From Capsulimonas corticalis (GTDB lineage: Bacteria; Armatimonadota; Armatimonadia; Armatimonadales; Capsulimonadaceae), in the NCBI RefSeq assembly GCF_003574315.2, contig NZ_AP025739.1:4960001-5024000 (forward strand): a stretch of 64,000 bases of DNA, written 5' to 3'. The notes under the pieces are model-generated. The model had not been told where the DNA came from. It saw nothing but the letters and a program-made list of their open reading frames with translations, and did no database searches. Within the stretch, counting starts at the first letter, position 1, and each line of letters opens with the position of its first letter. The position numbers were made by a program, and so were the translations under genes. This document shows positions 5,838 through 16,636 of this stretch, piece after piece.

Positions 5838-7274
5838 TCATCGCTGCACCACGCCGTCGTTTTTGCTGTCTGGTTCGACTATCGCGATGGCGGGGTGCAT
5901 GAAGTATTTATTCGCGACCCGCTGGACGTCGGCGGCGGTGACGGCGTTGATGCGGTCGGTGAAGGCTTCGTCCAGGTTGCCGGTGTCGTTGGAAGAGATT
6001 TCGGCGAGGCCGAGCAGCTCGGCGCGGTCTTCAATGCGCTCGTGCTTGATCTTTTGCGTGCCGATGAGATAGTGTTTCGCACGGCTGATTTCGGCGTCCG
6101 TGGCGGGCTTGGTTTGCAGATCGGTGATCTGGTCTAGCAGAAGCTTCTGCACGTCGGCGACGGGGTTGCCTTTGGGCGGCGTCGCGGAGGGCGCGCTTGC
6201 CGCCGTGAAGATGTAGGCGGTCAGGTCCCCCGAGTAGAGCTGCGGGGAGTAGAAGGAGCCCAGGTCATAGGCCAGCCCCTGCTTTTCGCGCAGGTTGGTG
6301 AACATGCGCGAGGTCTTCATGCCGCCGAGCAGTGCGTTCGCCACTTGAAGCGCGAAGTAGTCGGGATTGGACATCGACGGCGCTCGGAAACCCGCCATCA
6401 CGCAGTTCTGAGTCAGATCGGACATGGTGGCGTGGAAGGGCGCGGGATCGCCGGCGAGCGACGGCAGCTCGACCAGAGGGGCCGGGACGCGGCGGGCGCC
6501 GCGGACGCCTGGCTCGTAGTCCGCCATATCACGCGCGATCTCGCTGACCGCGTCCTCGGGCTTGATATTCCCGACGATCGAAACGGTCATATTTTGCGGA
6601 ATGTAGTAACGCAGATAGTACTGCTGGAGCTGTCGGCGAGTGATGCGCTGAATGCTGCGCACGGTCCCAACGGCCGGCAGCGCGTAACCGCTATTGGCGA
6701 ACAGGCGACTGCGGACGCCGTTGTACGTGACGGTGAACAAGCCGGCGTCGCTGTCGTTGATGTCCGAAAGCATGTCGGCGCGGCGCTGCTCCACAATGTC
6801 GGGATCGAATGTCGCGTTCTTCAGGACATCGGTGATCAGGGACATCATGACGGAGTAGCGGTCGCTGACGGCGAGCGCGGAGATGCGGGTCCAGTCCGGC
6901 TGGCGCGAGACGTCGACGCTTCCTCCGAGGTCGGCGATCTCGCCGGTGATCGTCTCCGACGAGCGGGCGACGGTAGACGCGAGCAGCGCGCGCGCGACGA
7001 AGCTGCCGATACCGGCGTTCTGCGCCGTCTCCATGCCGCTGCCGACAGTGATGAACACATCCACGGCCACCAGCGGCGCGCCGGATTCCTGCCGGACGAC
7101 AACCTTCATGCCGTTGGGCAGCGTGGTGCGATAGAGCTTGCTGGACGGCGCGGCCGTTCCGGGGGCGCTCGTGGCGGGCGCAGCGGGAGCGGCGGCGACT
7201 TCCGCGTGCGTCCTCGCGGCGCTGGGGATCATCAGCAGGGCGCAGGCGGCGGTTGCGAAAAGAGTTCGGGACAC
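5838..7274 (-). CDS. M16 family peptidase-like subunit, non-catalytic
   Basis: I start this at GTG 7274, 7 nt behind AGGAG. An ATG at 7301 also keeps the frame open but has no SD. A signal peptide (LFATAACALLMIPSAARTHAE) is followed by an Ala/Pro linker and two M16 domains (about 478 residues). The zinc motif HxxEH is replaced by GIGSFVARAL, so it should not hydrolyse peptides. The later R/Y-containing substrate-pocket region is kept. Such proteins pair with a catalytic M16 subunit, here the gene just upstream. It is probably periplasmic or surface-exposed. Confidence 0.85.
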   Translation of the reverse strand: MSRTLFATAACALLMIPSAARTHAEVAAAPAAPATSAPGTAAPSSKLYRTTLPNGMKVVVRQESGAPLVAVDVFITVGSGMETAQNAGIGSFVARALLASTVARSSETITGEIADLGGSVDVSRQPDWTRISALAVSDRYSVMMSLITDVLKNATFDPDIVEQRRADMLSDINDSDAGLFTVTYNGVRSRLFANSGYALPAVGTVRSIQRITRRQLQQYYLRYYIPQNMTVSIVGNIKPEDAVSEIARDMADYEPGVRGARRVPAPLVELPSLAGDPAPFHATMSDLTQNCVMAGFRAPSMSNPDYFALQVANALLGGMKTSRMFTNLREKQGLAYDLGSFYSPQLYSGDLTAYIFTAASAPSATPPKGNPVADVQKLLLDQITDLQTKPATDAEISRAKHYLIGTQKIKHERIEDRAELLGLAEISSNDTGNLDEAFTDRINAVTAADVQRVANKYFMHPAIAIVEPDSKNDGVVQR

Positions 7275-7284
7275 GCAGGTACTC

Positions 7285-8766
7285 CTAAAGCCGGGATGCA
7301 TTGGTCGGATCGGTGTCGGCGCCGCGAGACACGGCGTTCGAATTCACGGCGGGCAGCCGGGGCGCGAGCGCCGGGCCGTCATTGGAAAGACTGGTCGCCG
7401 TAATCGGGTCCGTCGCGGGCAGCAGCGTGACGAGAGAATATTTGTTGGGATCGAGGTACTTGACGGCGGCGTCCTGCACCTGCGCCGGCGTGAGGTTTTC
7501 GAACTTCGTGATATACGCCGTGTCGTATTGATACGAGTCGATCATATTGTAGAAACCCAGCGCGTTGGCGCGCCCGCTCGTCGTCTGCACGTCGAACAGA
7601 TACGATGAGAGCAGGGAATGCTTGGCCGCCGCGAGCTCTTTTTCGGACACCGGCGTCTCGCGCAGGGCCGTGATCTCGCCCAGGATCGCCTTCAAGACTT
7701 TGTCCCGGTTGCCGGGCTCGAACACGGCGGTGATCGTCATCATCCCTTCATCCTTTTGGGTGAGGTAGTTGGCGCTGATCCCGGTCACGAGCTTTTGCTT
7801 GGTGAGCAGATCGTCCGTAAGGCGGTTGTGGCCGCCCTGTCCCAGGATCGTCAGCAGCACATCCATTGCGTACGCCTGGGAGTGGTCGCGGACGGAGGGA
7901 GCGCGGAAGCCGATCGTCAGATACCCTTTGGATACGGGGGCGACCATGCTGCGCGTGCGGATATCGGTCTGCGGCGGCTCGGGGAGCACTTTGTCTTCCG
8001 GCAGCGGGCGCTCGGCCCACTTGCCGAAGGCCTTTTCAGCCATCGCGAAGCCTTCGTCCGGCGTGATCTTTCCCGTGAGCACCAGCGTGACATTCCCCGG
8101 AACGTAGTATTCGTGGTAGAAATCCTGCACGGTCTTGCGCGTCATGGAAGTCACTTGCGTGGGCGGGCCGAGCAGCGGTCTGCCGTACGGGTGGGTGGGG
8201 AAAGTGATGGCGCTGAGAACTCGGGCGATCCGCTGGGATGGATCCGCAAGCTGGCGGGCCATTTCGTTCAGGATGACCGGACGCTCCTGGTCCATGTCCT
8301 GCTGGCGCAGCTCGGCGTGCATGAGGACGTCGGATAGAACTCCGAGCGCGGGCTCCGTATCGGACGATCCGACGGTGACGTAGAAATGCGCCCAGTCGTA
8401 AGAAGTCGCCGCGTTCATCGAGCCGCCGAGGTCTTCAATCGCGGCGTCGATCTCTCCGGGCTGGCGCGTGGGCGTGCCTTTGAAAAGAAGATGCTCGATG
8501 AAGTGGGCGGCGCCGTTGTTGTCCGGCGTTTCGCGGCGCGTTCCGGCGCCGACCCAGGCGTCGACCGTCACCAGGTCGGCGTTCCCCGAGGGGGCGACCA
8601 GGACTTGAAGGCCGTTCGCCAGCGTCTTGTGCGCGACGGGGCTAAGACCCTGCGTGACGGACGCGGCGGGGGCGAAATCCATATCCGCGGCGAAAACGGG
8701 AACCGGTGAAAACCCGAAAGCGGTGAGAAGAAACACAAGCGCGGGGCGGGAGGGCCAAAGGCGCAC
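7285..8766 (-). CDS. M16 family zinc peptidase, catalytic subunit
   Basis: The best start is GTG 8766 (GAAAGG about 9 nt upstream), which gives 493 residues with a signal peptide ending near VPVFAA. HFIEH at 88-92 is the inverted zinc motif HxxEH, and the downstream ER.VILNEM helix carries the third ligand. C-terminal sequence ends in an M16C-type half. The stop TAG (7285-7287) lies inside the AGGAG of the non-catalytic partner, 10 nt before its GTG, so the two chains are translationally linked. A heterodimer that degrades peptides in the envelope is the likely role. Confidence 0.88.
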   Translation of the reverse strand: MRLWPSRPALVFLLTAFGFSPVPVFAADMDFAPAASVTQGLSPVAHKTLANGLQVLVAPSGNADLVTVDAWVGAGTRRETPDNNGAAHFIEHLLFKGTPTRQPGEIDAAIEDLGGSMNAATSYDWAHFYVTVGSSDTEPALGVLSDVLMHAELRQQDMDQERPVILNEMARQLADPSQRIARVLSAITFPTHPYGRPLLGPPTQVTSMTRKTVQDFYHEYYVPGNVTLVLTGKITPDEGFAMAEKAFGKWAERPLPEDKVLPEPPQTDIRTRSMVAPVSKGYLTIGFRAPSVRDHSQAYAMDVLLTILGQGGHNRLTDDLLTKQKLVTGISANYLTQKDEGMMTITAVFEPGNRDKVLKAILGEITALRETPVSEKELAAAKHSLLSSYLFDVQTTSGRANALGFYNMIDSYQYDTAYITKFENLTPAQVQDAAVKYLDPNKYSLVTLLPATDPITATSLSNDGPALAPRLPAVNSNAVSRGADTDPTNASRL

Positions 8767-8901
8767 GTTGCAAACCCTTTCGAACGCCAAATGATGCTGT
8801 TGCGATTGTACCCGAAACTGAGGCCGCCTGCAACGTGCATTCGCAACCGTTCTTTTGGGGCGCCGCGCCCCGATGCGTGGAAACCTTTGCGCTGTGTTTC
8901 G

Positions 8902-8910
8902 TGGTATGAT
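8902..8910 (+). promoter_or_regulatory. Extended -10 promoter of rodA
   Basis: TGG followed by TATGAT (8905-8910) is an extended -10 element without a clear -35 box. Transcription would start near 8917, about 4 nt before ATG 8921, leaving no room for an SD. Confidence 0.45.
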
Positions 8911-8920
8911 AATGCGAACC

Positions 8921-10054
8921 ATGACCGTGCACAAACAGGGCTTTCGGCAGCTGGACTTCGGCCTCTTCGCGGCCGTGCTCCTGATTTGCTGCGGCGGATT
9001 GCTTTCCATCAAGAGCGCGGTCCATAACGATCCCCATGGGATGGACTTCTTCCGTAAGCAGATCATTGGGATCGTCCTTGGCTCCTCCATTATCTTGTTT
9101 CTGGCGACCCGCGAATACGAAACTCTCCTCAGACGCTTCGCGAGATACATCTATCCGCTCAATATCCTGCTGCTGGCCGCCGTTCTCATGCACATCGGGC
9201 ACGCGTCCCACGGCGCGCAGCGATGGATCGCTCTTGGCCCTTTCCAATTGCAGCCGTCGGAGTTCGCCAAGATCATCCTGATCGGCACGCTGTCGCTGTA
9301 TTTGGCGGAGAACATCGAGACGATCCGCGAGTGGCGCACGGTGCTCCGGTCGTTCGGGCATATCCTGATTCCCATGCTGCTCATCGCGAAGCAGCCGGAC
9401 CTCGGAACGGCGCTGGTGATCCTGGCGATCTGGTTCGGGACACTGGCGATCGCCGGCGCGAACCCCAAGCATCTGCTGGCGTTTTTTGGAACGGGCGTCG
9501 TCCTGTTCGCCTGTCTCTGGCACTTCAATCCGAAGGTCGGCGGCAATCCGATCCTCAAAGATTATCAGAAAAATCGTCTGGAAGTCTTTTTGAATCCCGA
9601 CGCCGACCCGCGCGACTCCGGGTATCACTTGCGGCAAAGCGAGATCGCGATTGGAAACGGCCGGATCAGCGGCGAGGGTTATCTGCACGGCGCGCAGAGC
9701 AACGGGCGGTTTATCCCGGAACAGCACACCGACTTTATCTTCACCATTGTCGGCGAAGAGGGCGGTTTCGTCGCTTGCGTCGCCCTGCTCGCGCTCTATC
9801 TCTTCGTACTGGAGCGCGGCGTAATGATCCTCGCCGACTGTAAAGACACCCTCGGCCGTCTTCTCGCCGCCGGCGTGCTCTCCATGCTCACATTCCATAC
9901 CGTGGTCAACGCGGGCATGACCATGGGCATCATGCCGGTCGTCGGCGTCCCGCTGCCGTTCTTCTCCTACGGCCTCAGCAGCCTGATCGTCAATATGTCG
10001 GCGGTCGGGATCCTGCTGAGCGTCGCCGCGCAGAAGCACCGCGTGATGTTCTGA
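8921..10054 (+). CDS. rodA: Rod-shape-determining peptidoglycan glycosyltransferase RodA
   Basis: A SEDS-family integral membrane protein of 377 residues from ATG 8921, with about ten hydrophobic segments. Family signatures include GAQRWIALGPFQLQPSEFAK, KQPDLGTALV, the catalytic-loop region QSEIAIGNGRISGEGYLHG, EQHTDFIFTIVGEE and the closing PLPFFSYGLSSL. RodA polymerises lipid II glycan strands during elongation together with a class B PBP. An in-frame ATG at 8912 is also possible; both are very close to the predicted mRNA 5' end. mreB/mreC and PBP2 are not in this window. Confidence 0.9.
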   Translation: MTVHKQGFRQLDFGLFAAVLLICCGGLLSIKSAVHNDPHGMDFFRKQIIGIVLGSSIILFLATREYETLLRRFARYIYPLNILLLAAVLMHIGHASHGAQRWIALGPFQLQPSEFAKIILIGTLSLYLAENIETIREWRTVLRSFGHILIPMLLIAKQPDLGTALVILAIWFGTLAIAGANPKHLLAFFGTGVVLFACLWHFNPKVGGNPILKDYQKNRLEVFLNPDADPRDSGYHLRQSEIAIGNGRISGEGYLHGAQSNGRFIPEQHTDFIFTIVGEEGGFVACVALLALYLFVLERGVMILADCKDTLGRLLAAGVLSMLTFHTVVNAGMTMGIMPVVGVPLPFFSYGLSSLIVNMSAVGILLSVAAQKHRVMF

Positions 10055-10370
10055 GCGTCGGAGAGACGTTTCGGCGCCAGCCGAGCTTAATATTTTCTGA
10101 AAATTCTTTTCCACAATCGGGAACAATTATCGAGCGCTGGCAGTCGCAGTAGGTTATATTGGTTCTCGAGCAGCGTACTGGCTCATCAATCCATGAGGTT
10201 GAACCCTTCGATCCGCCACGTCGAGGGGTAGAATACGAGCGTCGATGGGCGACTGCAAGCCAATCCCAGCGCCATACTCAACTCGTTTCCCATTCCGTTT
10301 CAGCGTTCGAGCTGGGTGGGTAAATGGGAGGCATCAGTATGGAGCCCTGAGCCCATCGAGGAGATTCACT
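10055..10370 (+). other. Intergenic region, no gene recognised
   Basis: 316 nt between rodA and the HtpX-like gene. I found no convincing ORF with an SD, no tRNA and no standard riboswitch core. It contains short self-complementary segments but no terminator with a T tract. Confidence 0.4.
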
Positions 10371-11315
10371 GTGTTGCGTGCACCCTTAAGAATGTTAGGC
10401 TTGTTTGTGGCGTCCTTTTTCTTCTGGACGCTGATGGGATTCGTTCTCGGTCTTGTGATGGGAGCCGTGCCCGTCGGCATTGCTATTGGCGTCATCGTCG
10501 GCGTCGTCAACTGGTTTGTCTGTACCTGGTCGTCGGAGAAATTCGCGATCGATCTCTACGACGCCGAGCTGCTCGACAGCGAAAAGGCGCCGGGCATGAA
10601 CGATATGATCCGGGAACTCAGCCGGGATATCGGGATCGACGCCCCGCTGCTCTACGCAATACCGATCTCCGCGCCGAACGCCTTTGTCGTTCCGCGTCGT
10701 GACCGCGGCAATGTGGTGGTCGTCACCAACGGCTTGACCAAGCACCTCAATCGTGAGGAAGTGCAGGCCGTCGTCACCCTGATGCTGATCCGCCTCGCCG
10801 ACAAAGAAGCGCCGTCATGGTCGGTGGCGAGCGCGATCGCCGGACTGCCGATCTACGTGGCGTGTACGGGCGACTGGAAAAACGTGCTTCGCAAGAAGCT
10901 GGCGGTCGATCGGAAGACCGGCCTCACAATCGTCGAACGCGTCATGATGGCGTTTCTGATCGTGCCCTGCGCGATTGTATTGCGCATCGGTTACGATCAT
11001 CAATCCATCGCCGGCGCCGACCGGGCGACGGCGCGGCTTCTGGGGACGCATCGAGATCTCTACTCGGCGCTCGCCAAAATGGAGGAGCATCTGCCCAAGA
11101 CGTGGTGGGGCCGCTCCTACTTCAACGCCGCCACCGCGCCGCTGTTCGCCATTGAACCGCTCGCCAGTCCGGAAACCATCGCGGGGCTCGCCCCGATCTG
11201 GCGCTTCTCGCAGCACCTGTTTGGAAACATGATCCTTTCCCCGTCGGAGCGCCGCCGTTTGCTCAGTGAAGCTCCTGTCGCGGAGCCGCTCTCCGGAGAA
11301 TCGGTGCACGTCTGA
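10371..11315 (+). CDS. Degenerate HtpX-like (M48) membrane protein lacking zinc ligands
   Basis: I start at GTG 10371, 6-7 nt behind GAGGAG, which gives 314 residues. Two N-terminal membrane segments (residues 9-53) precede an HtpX-type domain: MNDMIRELSRDIGIDAPLLY, SAPNAFVV, VVVTNGLTKHLNREEVQAV. Where HtpX has HExxH, this protein has VTLMLIR (about 135-141). The later E-x-AD motif reads IAGADR, so the third ligand is lost too. The fold looks intact but catalysis is very unlikely. It may be a binding or regulatory pseudo-protease. Confidence 0.8.
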   Translation: MLRAPLRMLGLFVASFFFWTLMGFVLGLVMGAVPVGIAIGVIVGVVNWFVCTWSSEKFAIDLYDAELLDSEKAPGMNDMIRELSRDIGIDAPLLYAIPISAPNAFVVPRRDRGNVVVVTNGLTKHLNREEVQAVVTLMLIRLADKEAPSWSVASAIAGLPIYVACTGDWKNVLRKKLAVDRKTGLTIVERVMMAFLIVPCAIVLRIGYDHQSIAGADRATARLLGTHRDLYSALAKMEEHLPKTWWGRSYFNAATAPLFAIEPLASPETIAGLAPIWRFSQHLFGNMILSPSERRRLLSEAPVAEPLSGESVHV

Positions 11316-11336
11316 ACCTGGCGACGTGCTGTTGGT

Positions 11337-11383
11337 TGATCGAATGGCCTTTCGTTGACAAAGACCATTCGATCAGCTATACT
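11337..11383 (+). promoter_or_regulatory. glnD promoter with inverted repeat around the -35 box
   Basis: TTGACA (11355-11360), a 17-nt spacer and TATACT (11378-11383) make a near-consensus sigma-70 promoter. TGATCGAATGG (11337-11347) and CCATTCGATCA (11365-11375) are exact complements flanking the -35 box, with CTTT/AAAG pairing further inside. This could be an operator or a hairpin ending the upstream transcript; there is no T tract after it. Confidence 0.7.
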
Positions 11384-11417
11384 CACACCACTATTCCCTG
11401 TCTTTTCGCCCGTCGGC

Positions 11418-11449
11418 GGCCGCCCTGGCCGGCAGGCGTCAGGGCGGCC
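11418..11449 (+). promoter_or_regulatory. Hairpin in the glnD leader
   Basis: GGCCGCCCTG (11418-11427) pairs exactly with CAGGGCGGCC (11440-11449) across a 12-nt loop. It lies between the predicted transcription start (~11390) and the likely TTG start at 11463, directly before the putative SD, so it could limit translation. Confidence 0.5.
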
Positions 11450-11462
11450 AGGCGGAACGCGA

Positions 11463-14159
11463 TTGTCCAACGTCACTGAAATCCTCCCTCCCGACTGCTG
11501 CGCTCTTTTCGAGCCGCAGCTCGCGAGCCTCTCCACGACCGCCGACATCGGCGCCTTCCTCAAAAAATGTCACCAGGAGATTAATTCCCTCGACCGACTC
11601 TCGTCGGGCGCGGGCGTCGCATTGCTGGCGCACAACTGCGCGCTGGTCGACGCGGTCCTGCGGCGGCTGTTTGCGCTGGCCGTGGAGCACGCCGCCGCCC
11701 TGGCGCCGGCGGGTGAGGACGCGCCCACGATGCCGGAGCTGACGATCGTCGCCTCGGGAGGCTACGGCCGCCGGGAGCTGGCGCCGTACTCCGATGTGGA
11801 TGTGACGTTTGTGAGCGTGCGCGAGGACGACGCTTACTTGAACGCCATCATCAAGGACATGTTCCAGTCGGTAATGGATGTGTTTCTGTACGGCGCCAAC
11901 CTCAAGGTCGGTTACGCCTATCGCCTGCTGGGAGATCTGGGCCAGCTCGACCACCAAACGCAGACGACGCTGCTGGACGCGCGCTTTTTGTGCGGCGATT
12001 CCGAACTGTTTAAGGAGTTCCGGGCGACCTTCCGGGCGCAGCTTTTGACGGCCGATTTCATGTTCCAGAAGTGGGCGGAGCGGAAGTCGGTGCTGGCGAA
12101 GTTTGGCGGCGATCAGGTCTATGTGGTTGAGCCGCAGATCAAGGAAGGCGCCGGCGGTCTGCGCGATATCCAGAACGCCGAATGGATCGGCGAGGCGCGC
12201 TATCGGGTGAGCTATTCGCGCGTGTGGCGGACGCTGGTGGAGCAGGGCATCGTCACGGAGCGCGAATCCGCGTCGATCCGGGCGGCCCGCGAATTCCTTT
12301 GGAACGTGCGCAGCGTCCTGCACATGGTCGCCGGCGAAGCGCGCGACACGATGACCACCGAGAAACAGGAATCCGTCGCCGCCTATCTCGGCTATCCCGA
12401 TGGACCGGAGACGCCGGCGGTCGAGACCTTCATGCGCGAGTACTACACACATGCGGCCGAGGCGAGGCGCATCGCGCGCAAGGCCATCAAGCGCTGCCTG
12501 GACAGCGAGATCCTGCTGGGCCTGGGCCTGGCGTCGATCCGCCGTTCGCTCTACGTGGCCGACCCCGACATCGCCGACCGCGACATGGCGATGCCGCTGC
12601 ACGCCGCCGAACTGGCGCAGGCCTACTCCCTGACGATCTCCGATGAACTGGAAGAAGCGATCTGCCGATTTCTGGAGCGCCACCCCACGGCTCCGGATCC
12701 CGCCTATGCGGGACGCGTCTTCACGCGTCTGCTCGCTTCCAAGGATGCTTCCGCCATTCTCGATCGTCTCTCGGAGCAGGGCGTCCTCGCCTGGCTGCTG
12801 CCTGAGTTCGCGCCGTTGATGACGCTGATCCCTTACGACGCCGCCCATGACTTCACGGTCGGCGCCCACTCGCTGCGCGTCGTGCGCAACCTCCATCAGT
12901 TCCATCAGGAGACCGACCCGCGTTTCGCCGACTTCCGGCGCGTCGCCGGCGAAGTCGCCTTCCCGGAAGTGCTCAACCTCGCGGGGCTGATCCACGATAT
13001 CGGAAAGCAGTGGCCGGAGGGTGGACACGCCGAAACGGGCGCGGACGCCTCGGTGCTGATCGCCGAACGGATCGGCTGGGATACCGAGCGCCGTGACAAA
13101 TTGGTGTTCCTGATCCGCAACCATCTCTTGATGGCGGAAACCAGCCGCCTGCGCGACCTCTCCCTGGAGGAGACCGTGCGCGAGTTCACGCGTCAGGTCC
13201 CCGACATGGAATCGCTCAATATGCTCTACCTGCTCACCTGCGCGGATACGCAGGCGGTGGGCGAGGGGGTCTGGACGGAAGTCAAGGGCAAGTTCCTGAC
13301 GGAGCTTTATTACCGGGCGGAAGCCGTGCTGGCCGGCGGCTCGTCGGGCGAGACGCCCGCGTTCGTGCCGAACCTCGCGCGCCAGCGTGACCGAATCCGC
13401 AAGCAGCTCGCGCAGCACAATCTGCCGATCGACCTGATCCACGAGCACACGCGCAATCTGCCCGCCCAGTACCTGCTCAATACGCCGCTGGAGGAGATGT
13501 ACCTGCACATCGCCATGATTGGTCGATTGCGCGAGACATTCACGCCGATCGTCGATTTCCGGCATGAGTTTGGCAACGACTACACCGAGATCACGATCTG
13601 CGCCTACGACGATCCTAAACCAGGCCTTCTGGCGAAGATCACCGGCGTGCTTTACGCCCACGACATCAACGTCCACGTGGCGCAGGTGTTCACGCGTGAA
13701 GCGAGCGTGCGGATCGCGATCGACACCCTTTGGATCGATTACCGGGGCAAGCCGCTGGCGTCGGGCAAGAAGGCGGAAATCCAGGAAAGCCTGCGCAAGG
13801 TGATGCTTGGCGAGATGGCCCTGGCCGATCTCTTGAAGAAGCGCAATAAGCCGGTGAAGGATCAGACGATCTATTCGGCCAAGATCGACGATACGACTTC
13901 GGATCAGTTCAGTCTGCTGGAAGTGAGCGCGCCCGATGAAAAGGGCGTTGTTTACCGGCTGGCGAATGTGGTGTCCGGCCTCGGCTGGAACATCCACGCG
14001 GCTCGCCTGTCCGTCTGGGGCAGCCGCGCCCGCGACGCATTTTATGTGACCGGCCCGGATGGGAAGAAACTGCCCGCCTCCGATGTCGCCCGGCTGCTGG
14101 AAGTGCTGCCGGTTTCGACATTCGTGAAGCGCAAGCTGACCACGGCCGGCGGCGGTTAA
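11463..14159 (+). CDS. glnD: Bifunctional PII uridylyltransferase/uridylyl-removing enzyme
   Basis: GlnD modifies PII signal proteins with UMP under nitrogen limitation and removes it when glutamine is plentiful. The frame is open from 11355, but the promoter occupies that stretch. I therefore place the start at TTG 11463 (AGGCGG upstream), giving 898 residues, normal for the family. Nucleotidyltransferase motif GGYGRRELAPYSDVDV lies near 98-113, the HD hydrolase motif LIHDIGKQ near 508, and two C-terminal ACT domains near 710-790 and 818-890. Its expected substrate GlnK, with Tyr51 intact, is encoded at 56.9 kb. Confidence 0.92.
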   Translation: MSNVTEILPPDCCALFEPQLASLSTTADIGAFLKKCHQEINSLDRLSSGAGVALLAHNCALVDAVLRRLFALAVEHAAALAPAGEDAPTMPELTIVASGGYGRRELAPYSDVDVTFVSVREDDAYLNAIIKDMFQSVMDVFLYGANLKVGYAYRLLGDLGQLDHQTQTTLLDARFLCGDSELFKEFRATFRAQLLTADFMFQKWAERKSVLAKFGGDQVYVVEPQIKEGAGGLRDIQNAEWIGEARYRVSYSRVWRTLVEQGIVTERESASIRAAREFLWNVRSVLHMVAGEARDTMTTEKQESVAAYLGYPDGPETPAVETFMREYYTHAAEARRIARKAIKRCLDSEILLGLGLASIRRSLYVADPDIADRDMAMPLHAAELAQAYSLTISDELEEAICRFLERHPTAPDPAYAGRVFTRLLASKDASAILDRLSEQGVLAWLLPEFAPLMTLIPYDAAHDFTVGAHSLRVVRNLHQFHQETDPRFADFRRVAGEVAFPEVLNLAGLIHDIGKQWPEGGHAETGADASVLIAERIGWDTERRDKLVFLIRNHLLMAETSRLRDLSLEETVREFTRQVPDMESLNMLYLLTCADTQAVGEGVWTEVKGKFLTELYYRAEAVLAGGSSGETPAFVPNLARQRDRIRKQLAQHNLPIDLIHEHTRNLPAQYLLNTPLEEMYLHIAMIGRLRETFTPIVDFRHEFGNDYTEITICAYDDPKPGLLAKITGVLYAHDINVHVAQVFTREASVRIAIDTLWIDYRGKPLASGKKAEIQESLRKVMLGEMALADLLKKRNKPVKDQTIYSAKIDDTTSDQFSLLEVSAPDEKGVVYRLANVVSGLGWNIHAARLSVWGSRARDAFYVTGPDGKKLPASDVARLLEVLPVSTFVKRKLTTAGGG

Positions 14160-14195
14160 ATTCATTCGGAGCGAATGAGTAGGAGAGGAAACGCC

Positions 14196-14879
14196 ATGCC
14201 CAGCGATACGAACGGTTCGGAGCAGTTCAGCGCCAAATACCTGCATGTGAAGGCGCGCGCCGTGGAGCGCGCCCGCGAGCGCGGTGAAACCGGAACCCGC
14301 GTCGCGGTTCCGCGCACCCAGCGTCTCCCGCCCGGCCAGTATCTCACGCAGAAGTTCCCCGTGCTGGACCTCGGTGTCCAGCCCCCGTTCGATCCCGATA
14401 CTTATCGGCTGACCATCAACGGCGCCGTCCGCAACCCCGTCAGCCTGACCTTCGACGAACTGCGCGACCTGCCCTCTATCGAACTCACCGCCGATTTCCA
14501 CTGCGTCACCCACTGGTCCCGCTACGACCTGAACTGGACCGGCGTCCCCTTCGAAACCATCGTCGACCTGGTCGATCCGCTTCCCGAGGCGACGCATGTG
14601 ATGCAGCACGCCCTGGAAGGGTACAAGACGAATAACTCGATGGAAGAACTGTCCCATCCCGACGTGATCGTCGCTTACGCCCTGGACGGCGAACCGATCC
14701 CCCGCGAACACGGCGCGCCGGTGCGGATCATCGCGCCGCATCTGTACGCCTGGAAGGGCGCGAAGTTCCTGAACCGTATTGAGTTTATGACGCGCGATCA
14801 GCGCGGGTTCTGGGAAGTGAACGGTTATCATAACCATGCGGATCCGTGGAGCGAAGAACGGTTCTCGAAGGATGAGTAG
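14196..14879 (+). CDS. Sulfite-oxidase-like molybdopterin oxidoreductase
   Basis: 227 residues from ATG 14196 behind AGGAGAGG. The fold is the sulfite oxidase/YedY-type molybdopterin domain: LTINGAVRNPVSLTFDEL, then DFHCVTHWSRYD with the molybdenum-ligating Cys103, and HGAPVRIIAPHLYAWKGAKFLNRIEF. No Tat signal or heme domain is visible, so it probably acts in the cytoplasm or needs a partner. The substrate is unknown. Confidence 0.85.
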   Translation: MPSDTNGSEQFSAKYLHVKARAVERARERGETGTRVAVPRTQRLPPGQYLTQKFPVLDLGVQPPFDPDTYRLTINGAVRNPVSLTFDELRDLPSIELTADFHCVTHWSRYDLNWTGVPFETIVDLVDPLPEATHVMQHALEGYKTNNSMEELSHPDVIVAYALDGEPIPREHGAPVRIIAPHLYAWKGAKFLNRIEFMTRDQRGFWEVNGYHNHADPWSEERFSKDE

Positions 14880-14908
14880 GGGGGACGATCCTTTCTCACG
14901 GAGTCCCA

Positions 14909-16636
14909 ATGCATGAAGCCGGATTTCTTCTGAATATTGGGATCGCGCTCCTTGCGGCGCTCGCCGGCGGGCTTGTCGCGCGCGCGGTGCGGCTGCCCGT
15001 TCTGATCGGCTATCTGATCGCGGGCGTTGTGGTCGGGCCGCACACGCCGGGGATTTTGGCCAGTCCCGACACCATTCACACCGTCGCCAACCTCGGCGTC
15101 GTGCTGCTGATGTTTACCGTCGGCATCCACTTTTCCCTCGATGAATTAAACGCCGTGCGGCGGACCGCGCTGGTCGGCGGCGGGGTGATCCTGCTCGGCA
15201 TGGTCTTGCTGGGACTGCTGATCAGCGCGGTGTTCCATTGGGGCGTTTACGGCGGGCTCTTTTTGGGATGCGCTTTGTTTCTCTCGTCCACCGCCGTCAT
15301 GATGCGGATCATGGATGAGCGCGGGGAGCTGGGGACGACGCATGGGGCGATTATGCTGGGGATCCTGGTGGTGCAGGATCTGTCGCTGGTGCTGATGGCG
15401 GCGCTGCTGCCCGCGCTCGCCGGAGTGGCCGCGCACGGCGCGGCGGCGCTTGCGCCGCTGGGATGGGCGCTGCTGAAGGCGGCGCTGTTCATGGGCGCGG
15501 CGATCGTGCTGGCGATCAAAGGGGTTCCAGCGCTTATGGGACGCGTGGCGCGGATGGGATCGCAGGAGCTGTTCCTGCTGACCGGGGTGGGGATCTGCCT
15601 GGTGACAGCCGTCACGGCGGAGCTTGCGGGATTGGGATTGGCGCTGGGCGCCTTCATCGCGGGGATTGTCGTATCCGAGACGGATTACGCGCACGAGCTG
15701 TTCGCACAGATCCGGCCTCTGCGCGATGTCTTCGCCGCCGTCTTTTTCGTCTCCGTCGGCATGCTGCTCGATCCGGCGTTTCTGCGAGCGCACTGGCCCG
15801 CCGTGCTCTGCGTGGTGCTGGCGATCGTTATCGGCAAGGCGTTTCTCTCCGCGCTCGCCGTTTATGCGACGGGGCATCATGGGCGCACGGCGATCCTTGC
15901 GGGGCTGGGACTGGCGCAGATCGGCGAGTTCTCATTTGTCCTCGCGAATATCGGCGGCGAGCGCAAGCTGATCGATCCGGAGATCACGGGCGTGATCCTT
16001 TCGGCGGCGCTGATCACGCTGCTGCTGACGCCGTTTGTGTACGGCGCCGCCGGGCCGGTTTATACGCGTCTGAACCGAAATCCCATCGTCTCACGCTGGC
16101 TCAACCGTCACCCCGAGGAAGAACTCGTGAACGCCGAAGCCTGCTCCACGGCTCGCGTTTTGGTGCTTGGCTATGGACGCGTCGGCCGGTATGTTTCCGA
16201 CGCCCTGCGCGCGAACGATATCGCTCATATTGTCGTAGACTATGATGGGAACGCCATCGCCAAACTCAGGCAGGGCGGTGTGACGACGATCTACGGAGAC
16301 GCTTCTTCGGAAACGGTGCTGGCGCAGACGAATCCGCAGTGTTTGGATCTCGCCATTGTGGCGCTGCCCGAGGCGGCGACGACCGAGATGGCGCTGCATG
16401 TGCTGAAGCATCTCGCTCCCGAGCTTCCCGTGGTCGCGCGCGTCCATCGGGGCATCGATATCCCGCGCATGCGCGAGGCCGGAGCGGACGCCGTGATTCA
16501 TGCGGAGTTTGAGGCCGGAACGGAGATGATCCGTCAAAGCCTGAGCCGCCTGGATCTGAGCGATACAAAAGTTCAGGAGTACATCGACGGCGTGCGCGAG
16601 CACCGATACCGGCGCGAAGCAGAGCCGGCCGTATGA
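14909..16636 (+). CDS. CPA2 (Kef-type) cation/proton antiporter with RCK-N domain
   Basis: 575 residues. The first ~390 form about 12-13 membrane segments of the CPA2 type (LIGYLIAGVVVGPHTPG, LFLSSTAVMMRI, GAFIAGIVVSETDYAHEL, VFFVSVGMLLDP). A cytoplasmic TrkA-N/RCK domain starts near residue 414 with the nucleotide-binding LVLGYGRVGRYV and VVDYDGNAI. It likely exports K+ or Na+ in exchange for protons, gated by nucleotide or redox state. Its stop overlaps the ATG of a small membrane gene. E. coli Kef systems also use accessory subunits, but those are soluble flavoproteins of another type. Confidence 0.88.
   Translation: MHEAGFLLNIGIALLAALAGGLVARAVRLPVLIGYLIAGVVVGPHTPGILASPDTIHTVANLGVVLLMFTVGIHFSLDELNAVRRTALVGGGVILLGMVLLGLLISAVFHWGVYGGLFLGCALFLSSTAVMMRIMDERGELGTTHGAIMLGILVVQDLSLVLMAALLPALAGVAAHGAAALAPLGWALLKAALFMGAAIVLAIKGVPALMGRVARMGSQELFLLTGVGICLVTAVTAELAGLGLALGAFIAGIVVSETDYAHELFAQIRPLRDVFAAVFFVSVGMLLDPAFLRAHWPAVLCVVLAIVIGKAFLSALAVYATGHHGRTAILAGLGLAQIGEFSFVLANIGGERKLIDPEITGVILSAALITLLLTPFVYGAAGPVYTRLNRNPIVSRWLNRHPEEELVNAEACSTARVLVLGYGRVGRYVSDALRANDIAHIVVDYDGNAIAKLRQGGVTTIYGDASSETVLAQTNPQCLDLAIVALPEAATTEMALHVLKHLAPELPVVARVHRGIDIPRMREAGADAVIHAEFEAGTEMIRQSLSRLDLSDTKVQEYIDGVREHRYRREAEPAV

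Follow-up and report, generated by a model that had tools for sequence, protein, structure and literature searches.

An HtpX-type protein of Capsulimonas corticalis without a zinc site, probably a maintained pseudoprotease

The window (the whole stretch of 64,000 nucleotides analysed here, from a single-contig genome of 7.65 Mb) encodes a membrane protein that, judged by its sequence, is of the HtpX type (M48B) but has had its zinc ligands and catalytic glutamate replaced. Given that the known M48 mechanism needs the missing residues, hydrolysis of peptides by that mechanism appears to have been lost, and as a protease homologue without catalytic residues the protein answers to the description of a pseudoprotease. 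The same residues are missing from three relatives, namely orthologues in two genomes of a second genus of the family (G002 and G006), which share 34-35% identity with the window protein, and a more distant copy in a third genus (G005); these four are called the dead proteins below. We propose that the window protein is a maintained pseudoprotease, which probably binds membrane-protein segments in its old cleft without cutting them, a reading to which we give reasonable, though not high, credence.

Loss of the zinc site in an intact gene

The gene is an open reading frame of 314 codons (10371-11315) with no internal stop and a GC3 of 0.78. A sequence-only reading had described it as intact, with a good Shine-Dalgarno sequence and normal codon use; this holds, as GAGGAG stands 7 nt before the start and the in-frame codon score (0.24) is comparable to those of the neighbours (0.27-0.35), while the other two forward frames score negative. 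A scan of window positions 8000-15000 against Rfam gave no match.

10358..10363, forward strand: Shine-Dalgarno-like GAGGAG, 7 nt upstream of the GTG, from the sequence
10371..11315, forward strand: pseudo-HtpX gene, 314 aa, GTG start, the start being backed by orthologue alignment
10779..10784, forward strand: Leu137-Met138 (codons CTG ATG), aligned with the His-Glu of the catalytic HExxH
10791..10793, forward strand: Arg141, in place of the second HExxH histidine; shared by all four dead proteins
11007..11009, forward strand: Ile213, at the position of the Glu that is the third zinc ligand; the other dead proteins have Val or Leu here

Alignment with catalytic HtpX places LMLIR at the HExxH motif, with Leu137 at the first histidine, Met138 at the catalytic glutamate and Arg141 at the second histidine, in agreement with the earlier claim that non-ligating residues had replaced the motif. 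The third-ligand glutamate had also been said to be a glycine, which was a misreading: Gly215 lies two residues before the conserved Asp217, and the ligand position is that of Ile213. The HPx4R plug, described as family-wide in PMC7950410, was not found in the window protein and is present in all 53 catalytic relatives examined; one alignment places H285 at the plug histidine, without the proline or the spaced arginine. HExxH, the third Glu and HPx4R are together kept in 53 of 57 HtpX-type ORFs, the exceptions being the four dead proteins; this set comprises loci at hand, mostly the best-scoring matches of the phylum rather than a census of all matches, with duplicates, ORFs above 450 aa and BLAST hits of E above 1e-15 removed. 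As every one of the other HtpX-type proteins in the set retains HExxH and the third Glu, the loss of the ligands is not a matter of chance.

The protein might in principle still be an enzyme, using a different metal site or a mechanism without metal, and Arg141, Asp217, Asn103 and Glu130, which do not vary among the four dead proteins and which the alignment puts inside or close to the old cleft, could be read in this way. However, no His or Cys is invariant across the four, and the G005 copy has a single His and no Cys in its entire length. Thus, we see no sign of a substitute metal site common to the four, and we find a surviving enzyme very hard to credit.

Family assignment and predicted structure

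Descent from HtpX is supported by significant matches to the NCBIfam HtpX models (PRK03001, E = 1.1e-25, residues 22-273), although the score of 90.4 bits is far below the curated cut-off of 369 bits; against Pfam M48 the protein scores 19.6 bits, narrowly below the cut-off of 20.3. A profile of the four dead proteins recovers the HtpX crystal structure 3cqb (E = 2e-6). Together with the predicted-fold matches below, the PRK03001 match points to common descent and a common fold with HtpX of M48B. The window protein resembles Escherichia coli HtpX and the Vibrio parahaemolyticus domain (3cqb) in topology, the PNAF edge strand, the active-site helix, the Asp after the third ligand position and the N-terminal membrane helices, and differs from them in having neither HExxH, third Glu nor plug and in falling so far under the HtpX cut-off.

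An AlphaFold2 model of the window protein has a mean pLDDT of 72.9 and a pTM of 0.74 (70.0 and 0.71 for a catalytic control), from an alignment of six rows; as half of these are catalytic HtpX, the model may lean toward the family fold. Its closest folds are Ste24 and ZMPSTE24 (Z 12.9, 199-200 residues, 6.2-7.1 A), followed by 3c37 (Z 11.5), BepA (Z 11.3) and the HtpX domain 3cqb (Z 10.4, 98 residues, 3.3 A), and the best matches of the catalytic control are the same proteins. Among the matches listed at Z of at least 8 there are only zinc-metalloprotease chains (Ste24/ZMPSTE24, BepA, 3c37, HtpX, BlaR1 and minigluzincins), a listing in which absence excludes nothing. Foldseek alone gave nothing at E <=0.001, its best match being 3cqb at 2.4e-3. 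The model is consistent with the earlier statement that the fold around the active site is kept: the predicted fold best matches M48 structures, and the dead proteins offer no conserved His or Cys to which a common metal site could be assigned.

Relatives sharing the loss

A search of 101 genomes gave some match in 58, among which G002 and G006 were conspicuous. The orthologues in G002 and G006 and the G005 copy, which reads ALAVAR where catalytic HtpX has AHExxH, lack the same residues as the window protein, and Leu and Arg at the two histidine positions are invariant in all four. This argues against a single decayed copy, one of the outcomes that would have spoken against the sequence-only reading: the same dead site is found in relatives of two further genera. 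In a tree built without the motif columns a branch with SH-aLRT 97 separates the four from the rest, a grouping that supports a loss common to the relatives and is to be read with caution, because the very long branches of two of the four and the odd composition of three make long-branch attraction possible. A separate loss of the site in the G005 copy, giving two losses in all, keeps some probability, since this copy has different neighbours and a very long branch; against independent loss stand the grouping of the four and their common Leu and Arg. A single-protein search of genome contigs gave no match, an alignment search of genome contigs returned only the two known orthologues, and viral contigs yielded three catalytic HtpX and no dead relatives.

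With a score above 300 bits to NF002826 taken as the call, catalytic HtpX is present in 3 of 19 genomes of the order (G005, G014 and G017), and in G005 it occurs (344 bits) with the dead copy elsewhere in the genome. The suggested check for a second, catalytic htpX in the window genome found none by this curated model; the same holds for G002 and G006, and in all three genomes the dead copy is the best hit. Hence the window genome has no HtpX-type protein besides the dead copy, a circumstance that the earlier reading had not foreseen. That genome has 11 matches to PF01435 as other M48 proteins, and one FtsH.

Selection and conservation

Between G002 and G006 the dead protein is 81% identical, with dN/dS of 0.10 (NG86) or 0.14 (YN00), values that come from this one pair, outside the genus of the window, at a dS of about 0.9-1.2, near saturation; for most of the distant pairs the values are those of NG86 alone. 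In the same pair the neighbours give 0.04-0.05 (rodA) and 0.06 (glnD), or 0.04-0.06 together, and merR and the KaiC-like gene give 0.13-0.19 and 0.08-0.09, respectively. These values indicate purifying selection on the dead gene and, with the shared loss, support the earlier view of a maintained pseudoprotease. The gene is maintained but fast: between the window genome and G002 the dead protein is only 35% identical, as against 71% for rodA, 69% for glnD and 78% for the oxidoreductase, and catalytic HtpX evolves more slowly than GlnD (identities of 54-58% vs 49%, and 80% vs 73%).

The part best conserved between genera includes the PNAFV strand, which is retained, and the helix that once carried HExxH:

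10644..10805, forward strand: codons 92-145, covering what were the edge strand for substrate and the helix of the active site

Here 28 of 54 residues are identical between the window protein and its G002 orthologue, compared with 74 of 244 in the rest of the protein (Fisher p=0.004, with the boundary chosen after the conservation had been seen). Between G002 and G006 the stretch most alike is 56-90.

Fast evolution might instead mark a relaxed, slowly decaying leftover of htpX, as might the gaps in its distribution: it is missing beside rodA in G004 and was not found in G003. On the other hand, the frame is intact in four genomes, dN/dS is low in the one close pair, the same residues replace the two histidines in each of the four dead proteins, and codon use is like that of the neighbours. 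We consider such decay improbable.

Gene neighborhood and a possible link to RodA

The gene lies between two conserved neighbours:

8924..10054, forward strand, predicted start: rodA/ftsW-type gene, upstream neighbour (Pfam FTSW_RODA_SPOVE, 7.7e-93)
11478..14159, forward strand, predicted start (ORF opens at 11355): glnD, downstream neighbour (Pfam GlnD_UR_UTase)

The order rodA, dead htpX, glnD, molybdopterin oxidoreductase is kept in the window, G002 and G006. In all three genomes the dead gene follows rodA on the same strand, at a distance of 316 bp in the window, 77 bp in G002 and 72 bp in G006. Genes for a MerR-type regulator and a KaiC-like ATPase stand between the dead gene and glnD in G002 (L039, 10697-12014) and G006 (L040, 10760-12050) and are absent from this position in the window. 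In G004 (L113) rodA is directly followed by the MerR and KaiC-like genes; this, with the result for G003, indicates that the family can do without the dead gene. Among the other genomes searched, only G001 belongs to the genus of the window; it is 69% complete, its glnD starts at a contig end, and it is uninformative.

This neighborhood underlies the main rival to our proposal, in which the scaffold is maintained but now serves the RodA/cell-elongation machinery, or some other partner, and has given up the old cleft as a site for substrate. The adjacency to rodA in three of three syntenic genomes and the retention of the N-terminal membrane part are both in line with it. Nevertheless, conservation between genera peaks in the former active-site region rather than in the membrane part, the ORFs listed around the G005 copy include neither rodA nor glnD, and descent alone may preserve gene order; we therefore see this alternative as rather unlikely, if well ahead of decay or a surviving enzyme.

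Two further observations concern this region. A strong sigma-70-like promoter (TTGACA, 17 nt, TATACT; 11/12) lies at 11355-11383, between the dead gene and glnD, which suggests that glnD has a promoter of its own. On the minus strand, two ORFs at 5838-8850 adjoin rodA, with a similar ORF near rodA in L113 of G004; an inverted-HExxH motif suggests that the two may be M16-peptidase-like.

Functional implications

In the mechanism that we favor, an inner-membrane descendant of HtpX, devoid of all zinc ligands and the catalytic Glu, would have preserved its fold, its membrane helices at the N-terminus and the cleft of the former active site. This cleft may still bind stretches of membrane proteins that are extended or misfolded, and pseudo-HtpX would then hold these or hand them on, for example to FtsH, serving membrane-protein quality control as an adaptor or holdase. 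That it binds proteins rather than cutting them is probable in that the dead version persists in distant relatives, and the cleft is suggested as the site by the conservation that lies there and by the chaperone precedent of BepA. The conserved core could, however, reflect a constraint of folding rather than binding, and the fast evolution and the patchy presence in G004 and G003 count against our proposal. As to origin, a more speculative scenario, which we offer with considerable doubt, is that htpX was duplicated in an Armatimonadota lineage, one copy became a zinc-free binder and the enzyme was then lost, with the dead copy, as a holdase or adaptor, taking over membrane-protein quality control, possibly in connection with RodA.

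Pseudoproteases are best studied in animals, as with the iRhoms. These inactive rhomboids are catalytically dead relatives of a membrane protease that evolution has kept, a parallel to pseudo-HtpX; they differ in belonging to the rhomboid serine-protease family and in having been studied in animals. The iRhoms are not known to be homologous to pseudo-HtpX. BepA of E. coli, which has the M48 fold in common with pseudo-HtpX, is credited in PMC7950410 with chaperone activities beside proteolysis; it differs in being periplasmic, carrying a TPR domain and having all ligands present. No paper on a pseudo-HtpX was found in open-access full text, a scope that mostly leaves out subscription journals.

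A genome whose sole HtpX-type protein is dead, together with a sister genus having live and dead copies, would provide a natural test of the cutting as against the binding-only functions of HtpX. Furthermore, annotation as htpX-like by similarity alone can label a dead enzyme a protease; conversely, a Pfam search at E 0.001 leaves the orthologue L042 and the G005 copy without any family. A separate M48 protein, L088 (G001:C232:1287-1757; 612 aa), reads HQMTH, with Gln for the catalytic Glu, which could be an assembly error in that draft genome; it is 75% identical to L005 of the window genome (693 aa), which reads HEMTH.
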